Source: Methylococcaceae bacterium (GTDB lineage: Bacteria; Pseudomonadota; Gammaproteobacteria; Methylococcales; Methylomonadaceae). Taken from it: a DNA stretch of 53,081 nt. The stretch is taken from NCBI GenBank assembly GCA_029937975.1, contig JAPYOW010000010.1, positions 1-53,081 of the forward strand. Reading direction: 5' to 3'. How positions within the stretch are numbered: position 1 is the stretch's first letter; each line of letters opens with the position of its first letter. Shown piece by piece: positions 15,077-27,868 of this stretch. Position numbers and translations under genes: made by a program. Under the pieces are notes generated by a model, which saw only the letters and a list, made by a program, of their open reading frames with translations, searched no databases and was not told where the DNA came from.

Positions 15077-16726
15077 TTAATTTAACCAGTGATTCAATAC
15101 ACTGCGCACCCTTGTGGAGAAATCATTTTTCATGGGTAAAACGGCAGTCCCTCGGGCCAGCCCATTTTCAAGCTCGTAGGCAAGATCCATTGCATTCACA
15201 AATACTTTTTCTGGATTAACAGCTTTTGCCATCAAAATATCTAACCATGCCGGTAAATCAGGCCGATATTGACTTAAAGGCACAGGCTTGTCAAAACTGG
15301 GTCGGGTAAAAGGTTCTACTTCACCATAGGGATAATGACCTTTACTGAACATTCTATATAATGTTACCCCCAATGCATATAAATCAGATTGTTCATCACC
15401 AAAACCGCCTTTAAATAAGGTCGGGGACATATAACTGGGCGTTCCGGGGGCGGTACTTTCCATCTCATCATTTAAACCCGGCAGGCGTGCAACCCCCAGG
15501 TCGACCAGTTTAAGCCCTCCTTGCGCTAACAAAATGACATTGTCCGGCTTAATATCCCGATGAATCACCCTTTCTTTATGCAAGGCATAAACCGCTTTAA
15601 TTAACATTAAACTAATTTCTATGCCCTGTTCCAGCGATATTTTACTGCGTAATAAACGATTTTCCAGGGTCTCACCCGCATAATACGGCATGATGGTATA
15701 AAGCCACGACTGTCGATTCGTCTCTAACTCGACTTGCTCCGCGATCCAGACATTATGTACATGGGACGTTATCCAGTGTTCACGAATAAAAGCCTGCCGG
15801 TAAATGGCCTCAGTATTGGCGGCCAATATGGGAAACTTCATCACCACTTCACCGTGCATTCCTTGTTCATCCTGCGCTAAGAACAAACAGGTAAAGCGTC
15901 CTTCTGAAATGATTGCAGTCAACCGGAAACCATCAATTAACTCACCCACTTTGGGCATTGCCAGGATGGTTAACTCATCAACTGCTGACTCTAAAAATGA
16001 TTTATCGGGAGGAGGCAGTTTAAGAATATCAAGCACGATAGCACTGACGTTATCCTGACTCCCTGCAATCAAAGCCTGTTGAACCAATGCCTGAGCATGA
16101 TCATGCGTGGATTGGTTCTGCACCAGTAATTGCTGGATCTTATGATCGTTAAGAACCGTATGCACGCCATCACAGCATAATAAAAAACGATCATGAAGAT
16201 TTAAATTATGATGAGAATAGTCAATATGGACAGTATCATCAATGCCTAAGGCACGCGTCAATACATGTTGTAAATCAGGATGCTGATGCACATGATCAGT
16301 GGTTAAACATTGCAACCTGTTATTTCTTAAACGATAAATACGAGTATCACCCAAGTGTATGACATGCGCCTGACTGCCTATCAAAATCAAGGAACTAAAT
16401 GTAGTCCCCATACCTTTAAGAGCCGGGTCACGACTGGATTGAGAAAATATCCAGCGATTGATTGAGGTTAATGCATTTTCAGCCATCCTTTTTACCCCCA
16501 GAGTCTCCTTTTGCTCATAATAGGCATCGATAAACTCATGCACAGCCAATTCAGCCGCATAACGGCCGCCACCCGTCCCACCGATGCCATCGGCAATAAT
16601 GGCCATACTGCCATAGATAGCCTGCTGGTCTTCAGCGCCTGAATAAAAAGCCACGAAATCTTCGTTCTCTTCTCGTTTGCCTGTTTCGGTGGCAAAACCA
16701 CATTGTGTCTTTAATGGTTCTAACAT
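15077..16726 (-). CDS. PP2C phosphatase fused to Ser/Thr protein kinase
   Basis: The 549-residue protein starts at the ATG 16724-16726, preceded by AAGGGG; twelve in-frame residues further upstream are unlikely to be translated. Residues about 5-235 are a PP2C phosphatase (CGFATETGKREENEDF, AIIADGIGGTGGG, HLGDTRIYRL, GSQDNVSAIVLDI). Residues about 265-520 are a Hanks-type kinase: VMKFP carries the ATP-binding Lys and HRDIKPDN the catalytic Asp, and LVDLGVARL replaces DFG by DLG. No membrane helix is obvious. The same phosphatase-kinase fusion stands beside nitrate transporter and nirBD genes in other gammaproteobacteria, for example the Pseudomonas aeruginosa PA1779-PA1783 region. It may adjust nitrate uptake or assimilation by phosphorylation, which is inference from context. 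Confidence 0.88.
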   Translation of the reverse strand: MLEPLKTQCGFATETGKREENEDFVAFYSGAEDQQAIYGSMAIIADGIGGTGGGRYAAELAVHEFIDAYYEQKETLGVKRMAENALTSINRWIFSQSSRDPALKGMGTTFSSLILIGSQAHVIHLGDTRIYRLRNNRLQCLTTDHVHQHPDLQHVLTRALGIDDTVHIDYSHHNLNLHDRFLLCCDGVHTVLNDHKIQQLLVQNQSTHDHAQALVQQALIAGSQDNVSAIVLDILKLPPPDKSFLESAVDELTILAMPKVGELIDGFRLTAIISEGRFTCLFLAQDEQGMHGEVVMKFPILAANTEAIYRQAFIREHWITSHVHNVWIAEQVELETNRQSWLYTIMPYYAGETLENRLLRSKISLEQGIEISLMLIKAVYALHKERVIHRDIKPDNVILLAQGGLKLVDLGVARLPGLNDEMESTAPGTPSYMSPTLFKGGFGDEQSDLYALGVTLYRMFSKGHYPYGEVEPFTRPSFDKPVPLSQYRPDLPAWLDILMAKAVNPEKVFVNAMDLAYELENGLARGTAVLPMKNDFSTRVRSVLNHWLN

Positions 16727-16817
16727 AAAAAACCCCTTGTTTTGCCATAATACTAGCGCCAAACAAAACTCGATTCAACAGAAAGTAACAAGGCAACAAT
16801 CGTAATACAGTATCAAT

Positions 16818-16834
16818 CGCACCACAAGCAAGCA
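16818..16834. promoter_or_regulatory. Weak candidate NtrC site upstream of narK
   Basis: CGCACCACAAGCAAGCA keeps GCACC on the left and GCA on the right with the 5-base spacer of the NtrC consensus (TGCACY-N5-GGTGCA). A second half-site, TGCACT, starts at 16849. Both lie 120-170 bases upstream of the sigma-54 promoter, the usual enhancer distance. Each is imperfect, so the assignment depends on context. Confidence 0.3.
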
Positions 16835-16984
16835 ATCCACTGGAGGAATGCACTGTTTTGAAACGAATCTTACGTTGTCAGTCATCGCTGACATGAAAAA
16901 AAGGATCTATCCACTCTTTTTGATAAAAAGAAGTGATGTAAGTACAAGCATTTATTGCATCTATAGGTAACATTAATCAAAAAA

Positions 16985-16999
16985 GGTACGATTTTTGCT
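16985..16999 (+). promoter_or_regulatory. Sigma-54 (-24/-12) promoter of the narK-hao-FNT run
   Basis: GGTACGATTTTTGCT has GG at 16985-16986 and GC at 16997-16998, exactly 10 bases apart. It matches the consensus TGGCACG-N4-TTGCW except for T in place of C within the -24 element and A in place of T just before it. Transcription would start near 17010, leaving a leader of about 20 bases before the narK ATG at 17033. This places nitrate transport, and possibly the cytochromes behind it, under RpoN and an enhancer-binding protein such as NtrC. Confidence 0.7.
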
Positions 17000-17032
17000 T
17001 ATTCCACTATTAAAACTTTTATAGATTAAATA

Positions 17033-18244
17033 ATGACTATTTCTAATTTCCTAAAAAGCGGTCACAAAGGCACACTAATCAGTGCGTTTATTTATTCAGA
17101 CATGAGTTTCATGGTCTGGGTACTCATGGGACCTCTTGTTGTCTTTATAACACAAGACCTGAATTTAACAGAGTCCCAGCAATATACTCTGGTTTCTATC
17201 CCGCTGTTAGCCGGTGTTATATTCCGCATTCCAGTGGGTATTCTGGTAGACCGATATTCACCTAAAAAAGTGGGCCTGATTTCTCAGCTGATCGTAATAT
17301 TAATGCTGCTTTTCGCTTTTTTAAGCAATATCAGTTCTATTTCTGGCCTCTATACCCTCGCCATCGCTCTCGGCTTGGCGGGCACCAGCATGACAGTTGC
17401 ACTCCCTTTATCTAGCCGCTGGTATCCCGATGAATATCAGGGACTGGTGATGGGTATAGCGGGAGCTGCAAGCAGTGGAACTATTTTTGCCGCAGCCCTA
17501 GGCCCCATGCTTGCAGAGTCTTTTGGTTGGCGCGCTGTCTTTGGTTTTGCTTTACTACCGCTTATAGCGACTATCATTTATTTTTATCTCAATACTAAGG
17601 ACAGCGACCAGCCCTCAGAAAAAAAACCACTGTCTGATTATTTACAGGTTGTTAAAGAAGTGGATGTCTTATGGTTTATGCTGTTTTACAGCTTAAGCTT
17701 TGGCGGTGTAATTGCCTTGTCCAGTGTCATGGTGTTATATTTTTACAACCATTATCAAATAGATCCTGTGACTGCCGGCTATTATACTGCTGCTTGCATA
17801 TTAGCTGGAACATCATTACGCCCTGTCGGCGGCTGGATCGCAGATAAATTTGGCGGAATAAAATCCATGCAACGCTTTTTTGCTGTCACCGCCATCTCTA
17901 TGTTATTCGTGAGTTTTTCGCTACCCAGCTGGTTAGCACTCATATTATTAATTACCGGAACAGGTTCTTTAGGTATGGCGAGTGGTGCTGTATTTCAACT
18001 GGTTCCACTAAGATTTCGTAACAATGTAGGTTCAGTGACTGGACTTATAGGTGCTGCCGGCGGCCTTGGCGGTTTTTTTCTGGCCTGGGTAATAGGCCAG
18101 TCAAAACAAATGACTGACAGCTTTGCATTGGGTTTCCTTATTTTCACGTTACTTTCTATACTCAGTATTTACGGTATCCAAAAAGTTAAATCGCGCTGGC
18201 GAACTACTTGGGGTGCAGGGGAAGTCACAAGTGCACGCGTTTAA
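17033..18244 (+). CDS. narK: Nitrate/nitrite transporter, MFS NarK/NasA type
   Basis: The 403-residue inner-membrane protein has about twelve hydrophobic segments. Two NNP-family signatures are partly visible: LGLAGTSMTVALPLSSRWYP in the first half (about 113-132) and GSVTGLIGAAGGLGGFF in the second (about 335-351). The loop FRIPVGILVDRYSPKKVGL is the conserved MFS cytoplasmic motif, and Arg residues in the helices would bind the anion. It probably imports nitrate, or exchanges nitrate and nitrite. It follows a sigma-54 promoter, diverges from the PP2C/kinase gene and leads a plus-strand run into the multiheme cytochromes. The pairing with nirBD nearby favours an assimilatory (NasA-like) role. 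Confidence 0.88.
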   Translation: MTISNFLKSGHKGTLISAFIYSDMSFMVWVLMGPLVVFITQDLNLTESQQYTLVSIPLLAGVIFRIPVGILVDRYSPKKVGLISQLIVILMLLFAFLSNISSISGLYTLAIALGLAGTSMTVALPLSSRWYPDEYQGLVMGIAGAASSGTIFAAALGPMLAESFGWRAVFGFALLPLIATIIYFYLNTKDSDQPSEKKPLSDYLQVVKEVDVLWFMLFYSLSFGGVIALSSVMVLYFYNHYQIDPVTAGYYTAACILAGTSLRPVGGWIADKFGGIKSMQRFFAVTAISMLFVSFSLPSWLALILLITGTGSLGMASGAVFQLVPLRFRNNVGSVTGLIGAAGGLGGFFLAWVIGQSKQMTDSFALGFLIFTLLSILSIYGIQKVKSRWRTTWGAGEVTSARV

Positions 18245-18289: not shown

Positions 18290-19924
18290 ATGAAAAACAA
18301 ACAACGCCCATTATGGGTAATCACACTACTGGCCGTAGTGTTGAGCTTAAGCTTTCAAGCTTATAGCCCTAATGCCTCAGCCGCACACTGGCGCACAGTC
18401 ACGGACCCGCAAACGGGTAAAAATGTCGTCTTAAGAAAAGGTGAAACACTAGAAGACTATCGTGCCAAAGAAGACCATGACATGGTTAGAATCGCACCGA
18501 CTGCTACCAAATCATCAACCATTAAAAGATGGGTTGATGTGACTGACAATGAAAAAGCAAAAATACTAAAACCCTTTAAAAGTCTTAGTAAAGAAAGCGC
18601 CACTTGCGCCTCTTGTCATAAACATGAACACCCTGGTCTTTACCAACAATGGGGACGTTCTAAACATTATGGTGCTAACGTCGGCTGTTACGAGTGTCAT
18701 AAAGCTGATAAAGAAGACAAAGACGCTATTCGTCACAAAGATTTCTTTATTTCAGTCATTGTATCGCCTAAAGACTGTGGAACTTGTCATAACCTGGAAG
18801 CCAAGCAATTCCAAAAAAGCCATCATGCTAAAGCTGCTGAAATTATCGGTTCTTTAGACAATACTTTAGCCGAAGTGGTTGAGGGTAAAATGAGTTTCAT
18901 GGGCAGATCGCCTGTCGCTGTTGCCGGTTGCTGGCAGTGTCATGGTACCGAAGTCTTGGTCTTACCTAACGGCGAATTAGATCCTGCAACTTGGCCTAAT
19001 ACAGGGATTGGCCGTATCAATCCTGATGGTTCAAAAGGTTCTTGTAGCGCTTGTCACCAACGTCATCAATTTTCTGCAGCACAAGCCAGACGCCCAGAAA
19101 ACTGTGGTAAATGTCATTTAGGTCCTGACCATCCACAAAAAGAAATTTACGAAGAGTCAAAACACGGCATTAATTTCTACGCTAACGTAGACAAAATGAA
19201 TTTGGATTCAGCAAAATGGATCGTCGGTGAAGATTATGATGCCGCACCCACATGTGCTACCTGCCACATGTCTGCAACACGTAACTTACCAATTACGCAT
19301 GACGTAGGTGATCGTATTTCCTGGACTCTACGCCCACCTATCTCAGAAAAAATTGATGCCAGAGATGCGAAAAAAGGTCTTAAAGTCAAACCTTGGGAAA
19401 ACCGTCGCGAAGACATGAAAGATGTTTGTAACAGCTGTCACGGTAGAAAAATGATTGAAAATTTTTACCTACAATTTGATGGTGTGGTTAACATGTACAA
19501 TGAAAAGTACGCTATACCAGCCACTAAAATGATGGATCTGTTACTAGAAACGGGTTTACGTACAGAAACACCGTTTGATGAAGAAGTTGAATGGAGTTAT
19601 TACTTCATGTGGCATCACGAAGGCAGACGTTCACGTCATGGCGCCGCTATGATGGCACCAGACTATGTCCAATGGCATGGTATGTATGAAGTAGCGCATC
19701 GCTTTTACATGGAATGGTATCCCAACATTCAAGAAATCATTGAAAAAGCGGAAAAAGCGGGTAAACATAAAGAAGCTAAAATTATCAAAGACTATCTTGA
19801 TAATGAAATTATGACGCTGGATGGACATGCCTGGTTTGTCGGTAAAATGCCTCCAGAGTTAGCTGCACAACGTAAAAAGGATCGCGAAGCCTTTAATAGT
19901 CGTTATTTACAAGAAACGAAATAA
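18290..19924 (+). CDS. Octaheme cytochrome c of the hydroxylamine oxidoreductase family
   Basis: The 544-residue protein has a signal peptide (cleavage likely after NASA at about residue 31) and eight CxxCH motifs at residues 106, 133, 163, 214, 252, 272, 322 and 380. GPDHPQKEIYEESKHGI (278-294) is a strong HAO-family signature holding an Asp-His pair, and MWHHEGRRSRHGAAMMAPDY (440-459) is the conserved C-terminal region. It would sit in the periplasm, probably as a trimer. The family includes hydroxylamine and hydrazine oxidising enzymes and HAO-like nitrite reductases. Tyr459 is a candidate for the heme cross-linking Tyr; only alignment or a structure can decide. There is no haoB. The partner is a membrane multiheme cytochrome 20 bases downstream, and narK is 45 bases upstream. 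AAGGAT precedes the ATG. Confidence 0.88.
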   Translation: MKNKQRPLWVITLLAVVLSLSFQAYSPNASAAHWRTVTDPQTGKNVVLRKGETLEDYRAKEDHDMVRIAPTATKSSTIKRWVDVTDNEKAKILKPFKSLSKESATCASCHKHEHPGLYQQWGRSKHYGANVGCYECHKADKEDKDAIRHKDFFISVIVSPKDCGTCHNLEAKQFQKSHHAKAAEIIGSLDNTLAEVVEGKMSFMGRSPVAVAGCWQCHGTEVLVLPNGELDPATWPNTGIGRINPDGSKGSCSACHQRHQFSAAQARRPENCGKCHLGPDHPQKEIYEESKHGINFYANVDKMNLDSAKWIVGEDYDAAPTCATCHMSATRNLPITHDVGDRISWTLRPPISEKIDARDAKKGLKVKPWENRREDMKDVCNSCHGRKMIENFYLQFDGVVNMYNEKYAIPATKMMDLLLETGLRTETPFDEEVEWSYYFMWHHEGRRSRHGAAMMAPDYVQWHGMYEVAHRFYMEWYPNIQEIIEKAEKAGKHKEAKIIKDYLDNEIMTLDGHAWFVGKMPPELAAQRKKDREAFNSRYLQETK

Positions 19925-19944: not shown

Positions 19945-22008
19945 ATGATCATGCGCCGCCTTTCTCTGGGCGGCGCAGTTGTGTTGGGCCTACTGTTAAT
20001 TCTGTTTTCAGTCGCCGTCCCAGCAGAAACTGCGCCTCCTCCGCACTCCTTAGTCGAAGCCATTGAGGTTACCGCCACAACAGATACTGATACCTGCCTT
20101 GAATGCCATGGCTATAAAGGTTTTTCTGTCCCCACGGGTAAAACGGGTGGATCACCCAAACGTGCCTTACATGTACAATCAAAAGCTTTCAAAAAAAGTG
20201 TTCATGCCAAAGTAAGTTGCGTGAGTTGTCATGTAGACATCAAACAGATGCCTCATGAGCAAGAAGTCAAACGCACGGTTGATTGTGTGGGCTGCCATAA
20301 AATCCTGAATGAAAAGGATCGTGAAGCAGCCAAAATAGACATGCATGTTGCAAAAAACCTGACCCACAGTATGGTCGGTTTACCTGCAACCGTGCCCACG
20401 ACTACAGGGCAAAAAAGCAAACTGGATACCAATGCGGCACATTATCTCGCTTCTATCCATGCCCAACCCAACAAGGATAACCCTGACAAGCTCAATGCAA
20501 CCTGCTGGGATTGCCACGGAGCCCATAAAATTCTGGAAATGACAGGCTCCAATAAGGATAGCTTTCGCATTAACAGTCCGGAAACCTGCGGGGGTTGTCA
20601 CGATGAACAATTAAAAGCTTATACCCAGTCGGTGCATGGTGCACCTGTCAAACGCTATGGCAAACTGGAACCTGCCGTTTGTAGTGATTGTCATACCGCG
20701 CACAAAATTTCCGTAGTCGAAGAAGACCCGGCTAAATTAACAATTACTGAAAATTGTGGCTCATGTCATGAAGACTACTATAAGTCATACAGTGAAACCT
20801 ATCATGGACAAATCGTCAATCTAGGTTACACCCACACAGCCAAATGTCATGACTGTCATGCCCCACATGCCACACGTAAAGCGGATGATCCGCTTTCAAT
20901 GATCCATGAAAGCAAAATTTTAAACACCTGCCAGGAATGTCATAAAGATGCCACCGAAGGCTATTTGACATTCTACCCTCACGGTACGACGCATGATTAC
21001 GAGCGTTTTCCTGAAATGTGGATTGTTTCCAAATTTATGATTGTCCTATTGTTTGTTGTCTTTCTGTTTTTCTGGGGGCATTCCTTATTATGGTATTTCC
21101 GCGAGAAAAAAGAATTCGATAATGGGCATCAACCCACTATTCGTCTGGAACAAAATGGCGAACCGATGTTACAAGGGCAATACGTGACCCGCTTTACCAA
21201 AGGCTGGATGATTGCTCACTTAGTCCTTGCCATTGCGGTAATGACCTTGGTAATAACAGGAACAACAGTGCTATTTGCTAATAGTTTCTGGGCGCCATTG
21301 GTTATGAAACTATTAGGCGGAGCCGAGGTTGCAGCCATTATTCACCGCATTGCTGCAGTGACATTTGCCAGTATTTTCTTCGGTCATTTATATGTGATCT
21401 TCCGTAAAATTTATACTGATAACAGAGATTACGGTATTAAGTTTGAATGGTTTGGCCCAAATTCCTTACTACCTCGCTTTCAAGATGGACGCGACATGGT
21501 TGCCATGTTTAACTGGTTCTTTGAAAAAGGTCCACGTCCGGTATTTGATCGCTGGACTTACTGGGAGAAATTTGATTATTGGGCACCATTCTGGGGTATG
21601 TTTATTATTGGCTGCTCCGGTTTGTTATTGTGGTTCCCAAGCTTCTTTGCTGGCTTTATGCCAGGCTGGGTATTCAATGTAGCCACCATTGTTCATGGCG
21701 AAGAAGCATTCTTAGCCGCTGTCTTCCTGTTTACTGTGCATTTTTTCAACTGTCATTTCAGACCTGAAAAATTCCCAGTCGATGTGGTCATGTTTACCGG
21801 CAGTATGCCTTTAGACGAGTTTAAACATGAACGTACAGTGGAATATGATCGCTTAGTAGAAACGGGTGAACTGGATAAATATCTCGTTGGTGCACCTTCA
21901 GCCAGACTCAATCAATACTCCAGAAATCTGGGTTTTGCCCTGATTGCGGTGGGTGTGATTGAACTCATTCTGGTTCTGCTAGGGTTTATTCAGGACATAT
22001 TGGCTTAA
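19945..22008 (+). CDS. Nine-heme cytochrome c fused to a membrane cytochrome b domain
   Basis: The 687-residue protein has a signal sequence (residues 1-28). A periplasmic region follows with nine CxxCH motifs at 51, 92, 114, 187, 215, 246, 271, 301 and 329. From about 358 a membrane domain of roughly four or five helices resembles di-heme cytochrome b of formate dehydrogenase gamma/b561 type, with His residues in WMIAHLVLAIAV, AAIIHRIAAVTFASIFFGHLYVIF and TIVHGEEAFLAAVFLFTVHFFNCHF. The sequence HCHF is also seen at the end. The layout suggests quinol oxidation or quinone reduction in the membrane and electron exchange with a periplasmic redox enzyme. It lies 20 bases after the octaheme HAO-like gene, so it is its likely partner, in place of CycB or NrfH. 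The first ATG after GAGG is used. Confidence 0.85.
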   Translation: MIMRRLSLGGAVVLGLLLILFSVAVPAETAPPPHSLVEAIEVTATTDTDTCLECHGYKGFSVPTGKTGGSPKRALHVQSKAFKKSVHAKVSCVSCHVDIKQMPHEQEVKRTVDCVGCHKILNEKDREAAKIDMHVAKNLTHSMVGLPATVPTTTGQKSKLDTNAAHYLASIHAQPNKDNPDKLNATCWDCHGAHKILEMTGSNKDSFRINSPETCGGCHDEQLKAYTQSVHGAPVKRYGKLEPAVCSDCHTAHKISVVEEDPAKLTITENCGSCHEDYYKSYSETYHGQIVNLGYTHTAKCHDCHAPHATRKADDPLSMIHESKILNTCQECHKDATEGYLTFYPHGTTHDYERFPEMWIVSKFMIVLLFVVFLFFWGHSLLWYFREKKEFDNGHQPTIRLEQNGEPMLQGQYVTRFTKGWMIAHLVLAIAVMTLVITGTTVLFANSFWAPLVMKLLGGAEVAAIIHRIAAVTFASIFFGHLYVIFRKIYTDNRDYGIKFEWFGPNSLLPRFQDGRDMVAMFNWFFEKGPRPVFDRWTYWEKFDYWAPFWGMFIIGCSGLLLWFPSFFAGFMPGWVFNVATIVHGEEAFLAAVFLFTVHFFNCHFRPEKFPVDVVMFTGSMPLDEFKHERTVEYDRLVETGELDKYLVGAPSARLNQYSRNLGFALIAVGVIELILVLLGFIQDILA

Positions 22009-22079: not shown

Positions 22080-22997
22080 ATGTATTCAGATACTATTGAT
22101 CACTTTGCTAAACTCGCTAAAGTAAAAGCTGCATTATTAAAAAACAATCCAATGTCTTTTTTTATTGGTGCGTTAATGGCCGGTGCCTACTTAGGCATGG
22201 GGATTGTGCTGGTTTTTACCGTTGCCGGCCAACTTGATCCGTCTATACGCCCTATGGTCATGGGGATGTCCTTTGGTATTGCTTTGACGCTGGTGATCTT
22301 TGCAGGCTCAGAACTTTTTACCGGCCATACCATGTATATGACAATTGGCTGGTTAAAAGAAACCGTAACAGGCAGTGAGGTATTTAAAGCCTGGGGAGCC
22401 TCATGGAGTGGAAACCTAATGGGTGCCTTACTATTTGGCGTCATGGTAGCTCTTGGACATGGCGCACTGTACAACGAAAGCTCAGATTTATTAAATGCCG
22501 TTGCCAGTGCCAAAATGAATAAAGGCCCGGTGCAATTGTTCTTTTTGGCTATTTTATGTAACTGGTTAGTGTGTCTGGCTATCTGGACTGCAGCACGGAC
22601 AGAAAATGATGCCGCCAAATGTATTCTGATCTTTTGGTGCTTATATGGCTTTTTTGCCAGTGGTTTTGAACACAGTGTTGCCAATATGGCCGTTTTCTCT
22701 ATGGCTTTACTGGGTGAGCATCCCGAATCAGTCTCACTGACTGGCATGTTTTATAACCTGTTCTTTGTGACCTTAGGCAACCTGGTATCTGGCAGTGTGT
22801 TTATGGCGGTTGGCTATTGGGCTGCATCCCCTAAAGCCATGGATCAATCCTCTAAACCGGCCAAAAAGATCAAAGCCATGTTAGACGGATCATTTGATTT
22901 GCTGCTAAAACTCTATGGCTTGACCAAAACATATTCTAAGCAGGGCTGGCAGTTTGCTAAAGAAAAACGCCAAGAAAAACTGAAGAAAGCCGCGTAA
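22080..22997 (+). CDS. Formate/nitrite transporter (FNT) channel, first copy
   Basis: The 305-residue inner-membrane protein belongs to the FocA/NirC/HSC family, which forms pentameric anion channels. Six helices are expected. The helix 2 break reads SELFTGHTMYM (77-87), and the central pore His is His198 in ASGFEHSVANMAVFSMALLG. A positively charged C-terminal tail (about 258-305) extends beyond typical NirC. AAAGG lies about 8 bases before the ATG. It follows the multiheme cytochrome genes with a gap of 71 bases and is followed 20 bases later by a close paralogue. In this setting nitrite is the likely solute, but formate or hydrosulfide cannot be ruled out. Confidence 0.88.
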   Translation: MYSDTIDHFAKLAKVKAALLKNNPMSFFIGALMAGAYLGMGIVLVFTVAGQLDPSIRPMVMGMSFGIALTLVIFAGSELFTGHTMYMTIGWLKETVTGSEVFKAWGASWSGNLMGALLFGVMVALGHGALYNESSDLLNAVASAKMNKGPVQLFFLAILCNWLVCLAIWTAARTENDAAKCILIFWCLYGFFASGFEHSVANMAVFSMALLGEHPESVSLTGMFYNLFFVTLGNLVSGSVFMAVGYWAASPKAMDQSSKPAKKIKAMLDGSFDLLLKLYGLTKTYSKQGWQFAKEKRQEKLKKAA

Positions 22998-23017: not shown

Positions 23018-23923
23018 ATGTATTCAAGTACTATTGATTACTTTGCCAAACTCGCTAAGGCAAAAACTGCATTTTTAAAAAGCAATCCACTTGCTTTTTT
23101 TATCGGTGCGTTAATGGCCGGTGCCTACTTAAGCATTGGGATTGCGCTGGTTTTTACCATTGCCGGCCAACTTGACCCTTCTATACGCCCCCTGGTCATG
23201 GGCATATCCTTTGGTATCGCTTTGACGCTGGTAGTCTTTGCAGGCTCAGAACTTTTTACCGGTCTTACCATGTATATGACGATTGGCTGGTTAAAAGAAA
23301 CTGTAACAGGCAGTGAGGTATTTAAAACCTGGGGAGTTTCATGGTCTGGAAACCTGCTGGGGGCGTTGCTGTTTAGCATCATGATGGCCATTGGACATGG
23401 TGCACTGTATAACGAAAGCTCAGATTTATTAAATGCTATTGCCAGTAGCAAGATAAATAAAGGCCCAGTGCAATTATTTTTTTTAGCGGTTTTATGTAAC
23501 TGGTTTGGGTGTCTGGCTATCTGGACTGCAGCACGCACAGAAAATGACGTTGCCAAATGTATTCTGATCTTTTGGTGCTTATATGGCTTTTTTGCCAGTG
23601 GTTTTGAACATAGCATTGCCAATATGGCCATTTTCTCTATGGCTTTATTAGGTGATCATCCCGAATCAGTCTCGCTGGCTGGCATGTTTTATAATCTGTT
23701 CTTTGTGACCTTAGGGAATCTGGTATCAGGCAGTGTGTTCATGGCGGTTGGCTATTGGGCTGCCTCCCCTAAAGCCATGTACCCATCCTCTAAACCGGCC
23801 AAAAAAATCAAAGCCATGTTAGACGGGTTATTTGATTTGCTGTTAAAACTCTATGGCTTGATCAAAAAATATGCTACGCAAGGCTGGCAGTTAGCTAAAG
23901 AAAACCTGAATAAAGCCGCCTAG
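23018..23923 (+). CDS. Formate/nitrite transporter (FNT) channel, second copy
   Basis: This 301-residue protein is a close tandem duplicate of the preceding channel; most residues and long runs of DNA are identical. It keeps the central His198 but has Leu83 where the first copy has His83 in the helix 2 break (SELFTGLTMYM), next to the pore constriction. The C-terminal tail is shorter by four residues. No good ribosome binding site is visible, so translation may depend on coupling to the first copy 20 bases upstream. The two could form mixed pentamers or differ in selectivity, which is inference. Confidence 0.87.
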   Translation: MYSSTIDYFAKLAKAKTAFLKSNPLAFFIGALMAGAYLSIGIALVFTIAGQLDPSIRPLVMGISFGIALTLVVFAGSELFTGLTMYMTIGWLKETVTGSEVFKTWGVSWSGNLLGALLFSIMMAIGHGALYNESSDLLNAIASSKINKGPVQLFFLAVLCNWFGCLAIWTAARTENDVAKCILIFWCLYGFFASGFEHSIANMAIFSMALLGDHPESVSLAGMFYNLFFVTLGNLVSGSVFMAVGYWAASPKAMYPSSKPAKKIKAMLDGLFDLLLKLYGLIKKYATQGWQLAKENLNKAA

Positions 23924-24946: not shown

Positions 24947-25282
24947 TCAAAGCCTCACTTCGACACGACCCTTTTCTATACGAATAGAATAGGCTTCAAC
25001 ACTCATTTCTTCATCCTCAAAACATTGCCCAGTTTTTAAATTAAAATGCTGTTTATGCAACGGTGATGACACCATAGGAACCCCTTTAATATCTCCAATC
25101 AAGCCACGCGATAGCACATTGGCTTTGCCAAAAGGATCGTAATTATTAATGGCATAAACCGTATGTTCACGGGGCATATGAAAAATAGCGATTTGCTTAT
25201 TTTCAACTAAGGCACAGATGCCCGAATCCGGTTGCAAATCCGTTTCACTACAAACATCTATCCAGTCTTTATCAGCAGACAC
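24947..25282 (-). CDS. nirD: Nitrite reductase (NADH) small subunit
   Basis: The 111-residue protein is a Rieske-fold subunit: DSGICALVENKQIAIFHM, then IKGVPMVSSPLHKQHFNLKTGQCF. The Cys-His pairs that hold the Rieske cluster are absent, as in E. coli NirD. The start is a GTG at 25280-25282 preceded by GGAGGAGGT, and it overlaps the nirB stop TAG by one base, so the two are translationally coupled. It completes the cytoplasmic NADH-dependent enzyme that takes nitrite to ammonium. Confidence 0.92.
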   Translation of the reverse strand: MSADKDWIDVCSETDLQPDSGICALVENKQIAIFHMPREHTVYAINNYDPFGKANVLSRGLIGDIKGVPMVSSPLHKQHFNLKTGQCFEDEEMSVEAYSIRIEKGRVEVRL

Positions 25283-27819
25283 TATACCTCCTCCCCTATT
25301 TTTAAATATTTATGCTCATCCTCATTGGCAGGACGAATTTGCCCACGATCCTCGACAAACAGTACATTTTCATCGGTCTTGTCACTGTTCACAAAATGAC
25401 GGAAGCGTTTTAGTTTGGACTCATCAGCAATCGTGGTTTTCCATTCACATTGATAGCTATCAATCACATGCTGCATTTGTTCTTCTAATTTGTCGCAAAT
25501 ATTCAATTTATCGTCTATCACCACCGCTTTAAGGTAATCCAGACCCCCTTCCATATTTTCCATCCATACGGAGGTTCTTTGCATACGATCAGCTGAGCGC
25601 ACATAAAAGATGAGCACTCTATCAATATACTTAATCAAGGTTTCCTTATCCAGATTAGTAGCAAATAAATCACCGTGTCTTGGTTTCATCCCGCCATTAC
25701 CACAGACATATAAATTCCAGCCACTCTCTGTGGCAATCACACCAATATCTTTACTTTGTGCTTCGGCACATTCGCGGGTACAACCAGACACTGCAAATTT
25801 TATCTTATGCGGTGATCTTAAGCCTTTATATCTGTTTTCTAACTCAACTGCCAGACCAATACTATCATCAACACCATATCGACACCAAGTACTCCCCACG
25901 CAAGATTTGACTGTTCTTAATGATTTACCATAAGCATGTCCCGATTCAAAACCCGCATTAATCAATTCGTCCCAAATCAGGGGTAACTGGTCAACCCGGG
26001 CACCAAACATCACAATGCGCTGTCCGCCTGTCACTTTAGTATATAAATTATACTTTTTAGCCACTTCCCCTAAAGCGATCAGCATATCAGGCGTCACCTC
26101 TCCGCCTGTCATTCTGGGCACTACTGAATAAGTCCCGTCTTTTTGCATATTGGCTAAAAAGGTATCATTGGTATCTTGTAGACTGAGATGATTGTTATTC
26201 AGAATATATTCATTCCAGTATGAAGCCAGAATAGAGCCCACCGCTTGCCGGCAAATTTCACAACCGCGGCCCTGGCCATGTTGCCCAATTAAATCATCGA
26301 ACGTTTTAATTTCTTCGACCATCACGATGTTATATAAATCATGTCGTGTATGAGGAAAATGCTCACACAGGTCGGTATTAACCTCGATACCCGCACTTTC
26401 CAATTCACTGTCTAGCACCGATTTTAATAATGCCGAACAACCGCCACAGCCTGTTGCTGCTTTGGTTTCAGTTTTGAGCTCATCCATGTTCATACAGCCG
26501 GATTCAACTGCCTCACAAATCTGCCCTTTACTGACATCAAAACAAGAACATATTTGCGCTGAAGCAGGTAAGGCATCAGGTCCTAAGCCCACTGATTCAT
26601 CAGAGTAATGGGGTAAAATCAGTGATTCAGGGTTTTCGGGTAAATCGATCTCGTTCAAACAGTACTGCAGCAGCGTTCCGTAACCCGAGGCTTCGCCCAC
26701 TAACACCGCACCTAATAGTTTTTTTCCGTCCTCACTCACTACCAGACGCTTGTAGACACCTTCGCAACCGTCCTGGTAAGAATAAACCCGCGAACCTTGG
26801 GTCATTGCATGTGCATCGCCTATGCTAGCAACGTCTACGCCATTGAGTTTGAGCTTGGTACTCATGTCTGCGCCGGTAAAGCTGGCAGACACACCAGACA
26901 AATCGGCAATGACAGTTCTGCCCATGGCATAGCCGGGAGCGACTAAACCAAATATCTGTTCATTCCACACCGCACATTCACCGATAGCATAAACATCTGG
27001 GTCTGACGTTTGACACTGATCATTAATGGCTATACCCCCTCGGGCACCCAGTTTTAAACCTGAGTCTCTGGCTATTTCATCACGAGGACGAATCCCTGTA
27101 GAAAAAACAACCAGATCAGTTTCCAGCTCACCCCCATCAGCAAAAATCATTTTATTTTTGCATTGCTCACCGTCAACAATTTCAAGGGTATTTTTATTGG
27201 TTAAAACGGAAAGTCCGAGTGCCTCAATTTTATCCGCTAACATTTTAGCGCCGCCATCATCCAGTTGAGCAGACATTAACCGGGGAGAAAATTGAATGAT
27301 ATTGGTTTTAAGCCCTAAGTCCTGTAATGCTTTTGCAGCTTCCAGACCTAACAGCCCACCCCCGACTACCGATCCTACTTTCGCTGTTTTTGCCGCTGCT
27401 GTAATGGCTTCTAAATCTTCAATGGTTCTATAAACCATACAGTTTTCACGGTCATGGCCTGGAATAGGCGGGACAAAGGGATAAGAACCCGTAGCCAATA
27501 CTAGCTTGTCATACTGGATAGAAATGCCTTGCTCAGAAAAAACCGTTTTATTTTCCAGGTCAATTGAAACCGCTTTATCACCGAGATGAAGGGTAATCTG
27601 GTTTTTCTCAAAAAAACCATCTTCCACCATGGACAGGTCTTCAGCACTTTTACCTGAGAAATATTCAGTTAAATGCACTCTGTCATAAGCAACTCTAGGT
27701 TCTTCACAAAAAGTAACTACTTCATATTGATCCTTAATCTCACTTGCCGTTAAGTCAGCCAAAAAGGTATGCCCTACCATTCCATTGCCAATAACTACTA
27801 GCGTTTGTTTTTTACTCAT
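25282..27819 (-). CDS. nirB: Nitrite reductase (NADH) large subunit
   Basis: The 845-residue cytoplasmic siroheme enzyme reduces nitrite to ammonium with NADH. In order: an FAD/NAD domain (VVIGNGMVGHTFLADL, VVGGGLLGLEAAKAL, AIGECAVWN); a BFD-type [2Fe-2S] domain with CSCF and TGCGGC cysteines (about 425-465); and the siroheme/[4Fe-4S] half with CVGSTWC (C-x5-C) and SGCTREC (C-x3-C). An ATG at 27817-27819 is preferred; the frame also has a TTG two codons upstream. It heads nirB-nirD-phzF behind a sigma-54 promoter at 27869-27884, and with GltBD makes up the assimilation route. Length and domain order are standard. Confidence 0.94.
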   Translation of the reverse strand: MSKKQTLVVIGNGMVGHTFLADLTASEIKDQYEVVTFCEEPRVAYDRVHLTEYFSGKSAEDLSMVEDGFFEKNQITLHLGDKAVSIDLENKTVFSEQGISIQYDKLVLATGSYPFVPPIPGHDRENCMVYRTIEDLEAITAAAKTAKVGSVVGGGLLGLEAAKALQDLGLKTNIIQFSPRLMSAQLDDGGAKMLADKIEALGLSVLTNKNTLEIVDGEQCKNKMIFADGGELETDLVVFSTGIRPRDEIARDSGLKLGARGGIAINDQCQTSDPDVYAIGECAVWNEQIFGLVAPGYAMGRTVIADLSGVSASFTGADMSTKLKLNGVDVASIGDAHAMTQGSRVYSYQDGCEGVYKRLVVSEDGKKLLGAVLVGEASGYGTLLQYCLNEIDLPENPESLILPHYSDESVGLGPDALPASAQICSCFDVSKGQICEAVESGCMNMDELKTETKAATGCGGCSALLKSVLDSELESAGIEVNTDLCEHFPHTRHDLYNIVMVEEIKTFDDLIGQHGQGRGCEICRQAVGSILASYWNEYILNNNHLSLQDTNDTFLANMQKDGTYSVVPRMTGGEVTPDMLIALGEVAKKYNLYTKVTGGQRIVMFGARVDQLPLIWDELINAGFESGHAYGKSLRTVKSCVGSTWCRYGVDDSIGLAVELENRYKGLRSPHKIKFAVSGCTRECAEAQSKDIGVIATESGWNLYVCGNGGMKPRHGDLFATNLDKETLIKYIDRVLIFYVRSADRMQRTSVWMENMEGGLDYLKAVVIDDKLNICDKLEEQMQHVIDSYQCEWKTTIADESKLKRFRHFVNSDKTDENVLFVEDRGQIRPANEDEHKYLKIGEEV

Positions 27820-27868
27820 TTCCAATCGACAGCCCTATAAATTACAAATTCTTAAAAACAATAATTAA

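Follow-up and report, generated by a model that had tools for sequence, protein, structure and literature searches.

A phosphatase-kinase fusion co-encoded with nitrogen-source transporters in Proteobacteria and its possible role in their local control

Gene content of the locus

The window, i.e., the whole stretch of 53,081 nucleotides analyzed here from a Methylococcaceae bacterium (GenBank assembly GCA_029937975.1, contig JAPYOW010000010.1), encodes a protein in which a PP2C phosphatase is fused to a Hanks-type kinase (Table 1). The closest relatives of the window organism in the named collection are Methylococcaceae, Crenotrichaceae, and Methylomonas MAGs (75–77% identity), and it is therefore presumably a methanotroph; narK and the fusion both occur in Methylomonas MAGs. 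The gene for an MFS nitrate/nitrite transporter is divergent from the fusion gene and starts 306 bp away on the opposite strand. The transporter is named NarK-like because its score against TIGR00886 (230.6 bits) misses the curated cut-off of 311.7. Behind narK lie genes for two multihaem cytochromes and two NirC-like FNT channels, and a PhzF gene on the strand of nirB (−) is located between the channels and NirB.

Table 1. Features of the PP2C-kinase fusion gene and its neighborhood in the window.
Feature	Coordinates	Strand	Remarks
PP2C-kinase fusion gene, 549 aa	15077..16726	−	ATG at 16726, coding 15080-16726, stop 15077-15079
C-terminal tail, aa 525-549	15080..15154	−	Not hydrophobic; anchor position in other members
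Hanks-type kinase domain, ~aa 263-524	15155..15940	−	Pfam; nearest solved relatives PknB, StkP
DLG motif, aa 409-411	15494..15502	−	Natural variant
PP2C phosphatase domain, ~aa 1-236	16019..16726	−	Pfam; metal-site residues present
Sigma-54-type −24/−12 element of narK, GG-N10-GC	16985..16998	+	48 bp before narK
NarK-like MFS nitrate/nitrite transporter	17033..18244	+	TIGR00886; proposed partner and target
Codons of NarK tail motif RWRTTWG, aa 388-394	18194..18214	+	T391, T392
Octahaem HAO-like cytochrome c	18290..19924	+	8 CxxCH; same direction as narK
Multihaem cytochrome with b561-type membrane domain	19945..22008	+	9 CxxCH
NirC-like FNT channel 1	22080..22997	+	
NirC-like FNT channel 2	23018..23923	+	
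NirB, NADH-nitrite reductase large subunit	25282..27825	−	

An earlier note on this DNA had described the fusion gene as diverging from narK across a sigma-54 control region, and the comparison with related loci agrees: a GG-N10-GC element is found at the aligned place in six of seven loci, counting the window, with L002 as the locus lacking it. Across the window, the sigma-54 pattern shows no enrichment (261 matches when up to 3 mismatches are allowed, against 280 expected), so that the evidence for the element is its conserved footprint and not the pattern match. A scan of positions 16600–17200 for sigma-70-type promoters and terminators found neither. The region between the fusion gene and narK also contains a perfect inverted repeat (TGTCAG-N6-CTGACA, positions 16876–16893), for which no conservation was seen in the aligned relatives.

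Relatives of the two cytochromes recur in 9 and 8 of the compared loci, mostly behind narK, and the pair looks like an unnamed periplasmic nitrogen-oxide redox module. Elsewhere in the genome of the window organism, a second fusion (29% identical) is encoded on contig C17 directly behind a long NasA-type NarK, and no reductase gene was recognized near it on the 14.7 kb of this contig that were covered. Contigs C107, C39, and C8 of this genome carry NasC-like profile matches, none of which reaches the curated cut-off.

Domains and catalytic residues of the fusion protein

The two halves of the protein share one unbroken frame in the translated ORF, with the phosphatase at the N-terminus. PP2C_2 (PF13672) matches aa 19–195 with 46.8 bits (cut-off 24), and Pkinase (PF00069) matches aa 272–463 with 93.1 bits (gathering cut-off 31.7). 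The kinase residues K297, E316 of helix alphaC, D391 of the HRD motif, N396, and the DLG aspartate D409 are in place, as are the PP2C motif residues N21/D23, D46, D127, D186, and D225/N226, which bears out the earlier description of opposing phosphatase and kinase domains in a single protein. In an alignment of 166 fusion homologues, these positions are nearly invariant in both the kinase (K297 in 166, E316 and D391 in 164 each, N396 and D409 in 165 each) and the phosphatase (D46 and D127 in 165 each, D186 in 163, D225 in 164). The fusion protein can probably both attach and strip phosphate.

The DLG motif in place of DFG, to which the earlier note had drawn attention, is indeed present, but it does not set this protein apart, since DLG occurs in 43 of the 166 homologues (DFG in 120 and DYG in 3). 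DLG as the mark of a special or dead kinase was accordingly ruled out, as it is a natural variant and the other catalytic residues are kept. Other parts of the kinase are less regular. The glycine-rich loop GxGxxG retains a single Gly in the window (SEGRFT) and is degenerate in most homologues, position 276 of the loop being Ser in 124/166, and the HRD arginine is replaced by Gln (HQD) in 103/166. Such HQD kinases with a replaced glycine loop may not require activation-loop phosphorylation. An AlphaFold model of the fusion, built on 7 sequences, is weak (mean pLDDT 66.3) and was used solely to confirm the two folds.

Pairing with nitrogen-source transporters

Across 370 genomes of the class, in which the fusion was called at E ≤ 1e-30, the fusion was found in 130 genomes, a NarK-family match in 158, and an FNT match in 63. 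NarK is present in 117 of the 130 genomes with a fusion versus 41 of the 240 without, although the genomes are related and Fisher values for this comparison overstate independence. NarK or FNT is present in 127 of the 130; among the three exceptions, G143 and G308 have partial fusion hits only, and in G399 the contig carrying the fusion starts inside a NarK gene. NarK exceeds the TIGR00886 cut-off in 77 of the 370 genomes, and many of these proteins are fusion partners. The co-occurrence with narK that the earlier note had proposed as a check is thus pronounced, and a family with no genomic link to nitrate genes is clearly not what these genomes contain.

The gene neighborhoods were compared at 142 fusion loci, leaving out five partial hits (G212, G346:C153, G308, G143, and G278). 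Neighbor calls based on ORFs were rejected, as they undercount transporters masked by over-long ORF starts (L081, L120, and L211), and tblastn distances were used. A transporter lies within 2.6 kb of the fusion at 124 of the 142 loci (NarK at 94, FNT at 26, and an APC permease at 4), and at 107 the transporter gene is immediately upstream, in the same orientation and no more than 400 bp away. The remaining 18 loci comprise three with NarK 4–7 kb upstream, five with less than 450 bp of upstream sequence, and ten without a known transporter. None of these ten is at a contig edge, although L076 has just 2.1 kb upstream; another of them, L156, adjoins NrtABC-type genes.

At the 100 loci with full flanks (at least 3.8 kb on either side), a transporter was found at 89 and a reductase, defined as NirB or NasC within 4 kb, at 51. 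Forty-one of the 89 transporter-bearing loci have no NirB or NasC within this distance, while a reductase without a transporter was found at three loci and neither at eight. NirB or NasC is located within 400 bp of the fusion at only 13 of all 142 loci. The transporter is therefore the more constant neighbor of the fusion. The link to nitrate genes in other gammaproteobacteria that the earlier note had pointed out is real, and it is wider than was proposed there. Cyanase is encoded within 4 kb at 10 of the 18 full-flank FNT loci, and neither 14 of these 18 loci nor the four permease loci have NirB or NasC within 4 kb. The APC permeases (L082–L085) are encoded near genes for EutB (ethanolamine ammonia-lyase), aldehyde dehydrogenase, copper amine oxidase, or isochorismatase-type proteins, suggesting control of amine or ethanolamine uptake.

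The pairing extends beyond the class. In a phylum-wide sample, the fusion was found in 75 of 234 genomes, and a search of 28 further loci across the phylum identified NarK within a flank of ~1.5 kb at 24. Among 44 plasmid records with a match to the fusion, some of which are other kinases, 12 were inspected, including records from Alpha- and Betaproteobacteria; NarK/MFS or FNT is adjacent in 11, and the exception is flanked by insertion sequences. Three plasmids of Acinetobacter and Psychrobacter typed as mobilizable (L279, L280, and L285) carry an FNT channel, the fusion, and cyanase together, and the channel may be a cyanate or nitrite importer. Two loci (L102 and L066) have an FNT-fusion module and a NarK-fusion module adjoining, as if duplicated and refitted. 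Two distant fusions (L115 and L117; ~26–27% identity) have no NarK, FNT, or APC match on ~20 kb and are convergent with one particular neighbor gene, the start of which presumably resembles a phosphofructokinase; these fusions are perhaps of an ancestral unpaired type.

Phylogeny and the C-terminal anchor

In a FastTree phylogeny of the 166 fusions, several backbone supports are low, while the clades that correspond to the partner families are well supported. In one clade (local support 0.999), 31 of 32 members are paired with FNT, and no partner was detected for the remaining one; in another (0.992), all four members are paired with APC permeases. The other fusions on the tree are paired with NarK or have no detected partner. 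The partner family has thus switched rarely, and each switch founded a clade. This pattern is expected of a direct partnership and would be difficult to explain if the only target were a reductase or a global regulator.

A C-terminal membrane anchor is predicted in 157 of the 166 fusions from hydropathy alone (Kyte-Doolittle mean over 19 residues of at least 1.6 within the last 45 residues). Between the first 60 and the last 60 residues, stretches of the same hydropathy occur in 5/166 fusions. The nine proteins below the criterion comprise seven of the clade to which the window belongs, one borderline case (1.55), and one with masked letters. This clade probably lost the anchor, because its nearest sisters (L069 and L006) carry a predicted one. 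Since the anchor is absent and narK is divergent, the pairing in the window is looser than in most of the family.

Conservation of the transporter tail

The short-type NarK partners end in a tail that is predicted to be cytosolic and that contains the motif RWRTTWG in 20 of 21 proteins, with T392 in all 21 and T391 in 20. DNA able to encode this motif occurs in 21 of the 370 genomes, in 17 of them in the frame of NarK, compared to 4 of 370 genomes for the reversed control pattern. Sixteen of the 17 carry the fusion, and the exception (G193) is in the same family group (f32) as the fusion-bearing G064. In ten plasmid NarK homologues without an adjacent fusion (41–47% identical to the NarK of the window), W389 is retained in all ten and W393 in seven, while the TT pair is lost in all ten (T391 gone in ten and T392 in five). 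For these plasmids, the lack of a fusion refers to the stretch read and to the matches listed, and the chromosome may carry a copy.

Among all 63 tail sequences, which combine the paired NarK proteins, these plasmid homologues, and those of the phylum-wide sample, duplicates kept, TT is present in 39 of 43 from fusion-bearing genomes or records versus 3 of 20 from fusion-less ones. The four fusion-bearing genomes without TT differ in arrangement: the fusion is adjacent to that NarK in G131, some 3.7 kb away in G564, and on another contig in G531 and G607. Conversely, the fusion-less G193 and G408/G453 retain the TT tail. An ingroup set was prepared by removing the duplicates G000 and L090 and eight distant outgroup sequences, which include the fusion-bearing G131, G564, G531, and G607, all lacking the TT tail. 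Of the 80 NarK columns that are at least 97% conserved in the 37 fusion-bearing ingroup sequences, the one for T391 shows the poorest conservation among the 16 fusion-less ones (37/37 versus 3/16; the column median is 1.0). When the fusion-less sequences are treated as five lineages, T391 and G394 were lost in three, whereas 67 of the 80 columns were lost in none. By parsimony, T391 was lost twice on branches without the fusion and gained once on a branch with it.

Random controls gave mixed results. Among 2000 random lineage sets, 96 contain some column that three or more lineages have lost, and 50 of 1000 sets taken solely from fusion-bearing tips show such a single-column loss; a window of four residues as degraded as 391–394 was obtained in 6 of 2000 random lineage sets. 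The tie between T391 and the presence of the fusion is therefore suggestive but not conclusive. In the long NasA partners, Ser/Thr residues of the tail and of a loop are conserved, and no clean loss of Ser/Thr was found in the only clearly fusion-less lineage of this class (G227, G313, and G381), in a comparison made without G380, G146, and G204, in which NarK lies near a contig end. For the FNT partners, a search for phosphosites found no residue that cleanly splits paired from unpaired channels, and most channels of the same subfamily that lack a neighboring fusion retain the candidate Ser/Thr residues as well.

Possible function of the fusion

Because related genes usually adjoin a transporter for a nitrogen nutrient, the fusion probably opens or shuts that transporter. 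The reading that we favor, and hold to be somewhat better than an even guess from the sequence comparisons, is that the fusion is a local on/off switch of the adjacent nitrogen-source transporter by reversible phosphorylation. The kinase half would phosphorylate a cytosolic part of the partner, and the PP2C half would remove the phosphate from the same part. The modified part would most likely be the C-terminal tail of the transporter, and in the window the candidate residues are threonines 391/392 in RWRTTWG of NarK. Such a switch could rapidly close or open nitrate import in response to a change in ammonium or in the energy state, in addition to the slower transcriptional control by sigma-54. 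Two opposed activities in one chain would need a signal that tips the balance between them. In most relatives, the predicted C-terminal transmembrane helix may tether the enzyme to the membrane next to the transporter, whereas the anchor-less clade of the window would find NarK through another contact.

The earlier note had offered nitrate uptake, NirBD, or the cytochrome route as what the fusion might switch, and among these uptake has become the more likely target and the two reductive routes less so. Control of nitrate/nitrite reduction, through NirBD, NasC, or the multihaem cytochromes of the window, would suit the presence of NirB and two such cytochromes near the fusion and the reductase genes at 51 of the 100 full-flank loci. 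However, reductases are seldom close to the fusion and rarely occur there without a transporter (3/100), 41 of 89 transporter-bearing loci have none, and the permease loci and most FNT loci likewise lack NirB and NasC. NirBD makes little sense as the target of fusions paired with FNT near cyanase or with APC permeases near amine-degradation genes. Moreover, the cytochromes of the window are probably exported, because they contain c-type haem motifs, and would then be beyond the reach of a cytosolic kinase. We regard reduction as a very improbable target. Action on a global regulator of nitrogen metabolism, such as PII/GlnK or the NtrC pathway, with adjacency to the transporter reflecting co-regulation only, is less improbable, yet still unlikely. 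It would agree with the usual setting of the fusion among nitrogen-source genes and with the best PDB sequence match of its PP2C half, the cyanobacterial tPphA, which we take to be a relative of the PII phosphatase PphA. However, tPphA is merely among the nearest solved PP2Cs, and the match spans only aa 26–146. In addition, a global target would need neither a membrane anchor nor pairing with each transporter and a partner-specific tree, and two fusion copies in one genome are located beside different transporters.

A different relation between the same two partners has a similarly small chance of being correct, namely that the fusion works downstream of the transporter instead of controlling it: the transporter would act as a transceptor that senses its substrate, and the docked fusion would signal onward to regulators or enzymes by phosphorylation. 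The pairing, the partner-specific clades, and the anchor fit this direction of signaling equally well, and genes for ANTAR-type regulators are present in some of the fusion clusters. Yet the loci showed no constant second gene as a possible receiver, nearly half of the full-flank transporter-fusion pairs (41/89) have neither NirB nor NasC within 4 kb, and several fusion-less lineages have lost a tail residue that could be phosphorylated, a hint that the tail is the substrate.

The fusion and the importer gene that it usually adjoins provide a named enzyme, a candidate substrate, and a candidate residue. If the transporter is the target of the fusion, this would amount to direct covalent control of nutrient import in bacteria, widespread in the phylum of the window organism, and would give meaning to a large protein family so far annotated yet unexplained. 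To our knowledge, the rapid stop of bacterial nitrate uptake upon addition of ammonium is poorly understood, apart from control based on PII. A more far-reaching proposal, which we put forward tentatively and consider rather less likely to hold in full than the local switch as such, is that Proteobacteria possess a whole class of two-headed kinase-phosphatases, mostly tethered to the membrane. Each would be encoded together, and have diversified together, with a single nitrogen-source importer, which it would gate by reversibly phosphorylating the cytosolic tail. The class would have been refitted to importers of three unrelated folds (NarK-type MFS; FNT, often near cyanase; and APC near amine genes) and would be a bacterial counterpart of the Npr1-Mep2 and CIPK/PP2C-NRT1.1 systems, with the methanotroph clade of the window unanchored and targeting the RWRTTWG tail of NarK.

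Comparison with known systems

In plants, the nitrate transceptor NRT1.1 is controlled by CIPK23 and a PP2C, an opposed Ser/Thr kinase and phosphatase. These differ from the fusion in being separate proteins that are driven by calcium and act on an NPF-type transporter. In bacteria, GlnK is a dedicated cytosolic regulator encoded beside the nitrogen transporter AmtB, which it shuts when nitrogen is plentiful; in contrast to the mechanism proposed here, this PII protein plugs the channel and is itself uridylylated, and the transporter is not phosphorylated. Of the systems that have been worked out, Npr1-Mep2 of yeast comes closest: there, a nitrogen transporter has its activity set through phosphorylation in its cytosolic C-terminal region (PMC4852598), as is proposed for the tail of the fusion partners. 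However, Npr1-Mep2 is eukaryotic, its kinase is a separate protein that does not include the phosphatase, its transporter has another fold, and the resemblance is in working only.

The NCBIfam profiles nearest to the two halves of the fusion are those of the Stk1/PknB PASTA kinase, which carries a central transmembrane helix, and the phosphatase Stp1/IreP. The fusion is a single chain with the phosphatase first, and it scores below both curated cut-offs (106.8 bits versus 450 for the Stk1-type profile NF033483, and 165.1 bits versus 230 for the Stp1/IreP profile NF033484). It has no PASTA match, and its anchor is predicted at the C-terminus instead of the center. Among solved structures, the phosphatase half comes closest to tPphA, Stp1, and PstP, and the kinase half to PknB/StkP. 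Three plasmid matches (H22, H25, and H27) have kinase and phosphatase genes side by side, as in the Stk1/Stp1 type.

The NCBI name “bifunctional protein-serine/threonine kinase/phosphatase” is given to 20 of the 30 plasmid matches listed; proteins of this name have the same two domains, and the name conveys no more than these. PA1782 of Pseudomonas aeruginosa is presumably one of them. It is described as a putative third Ser/Thr kinase (PMC8560001) and appears in lists (PMC4412052; PMC4918941), and the available parts of these three sources contain no link of PA1782 to a transporter. A K-to-E change at position 297 of PA1782 is listed between isolates of a chronic infection (PMC4918941). Position 297 in the protein of the window, by its own numbering, which may differ from that of PA1782, is the ATP lysine K297. 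In another source, nasA (PA1783), PA1781, PA1780, and PA1779 are listed as strongly lowered in ntrB and ntrC mutants (PMC7214821), and PA1782 is not named in the main text of that source. Among the matches listed from an open-access collection with few subscription journals, taking the best 10–20 where there were more, no title or start of an abstract links such a fusion to a transporter.

In a methanotroph, the transcripts of nitrate transporters were lower on ammonium (PMC10623323), and the word kinase is absent from the main text of that source. Uptake of cyanate via nitrate/nitrite transporters has been suggested (PMC6627978), which fits the clusters of FNT channels and cyanase found here.
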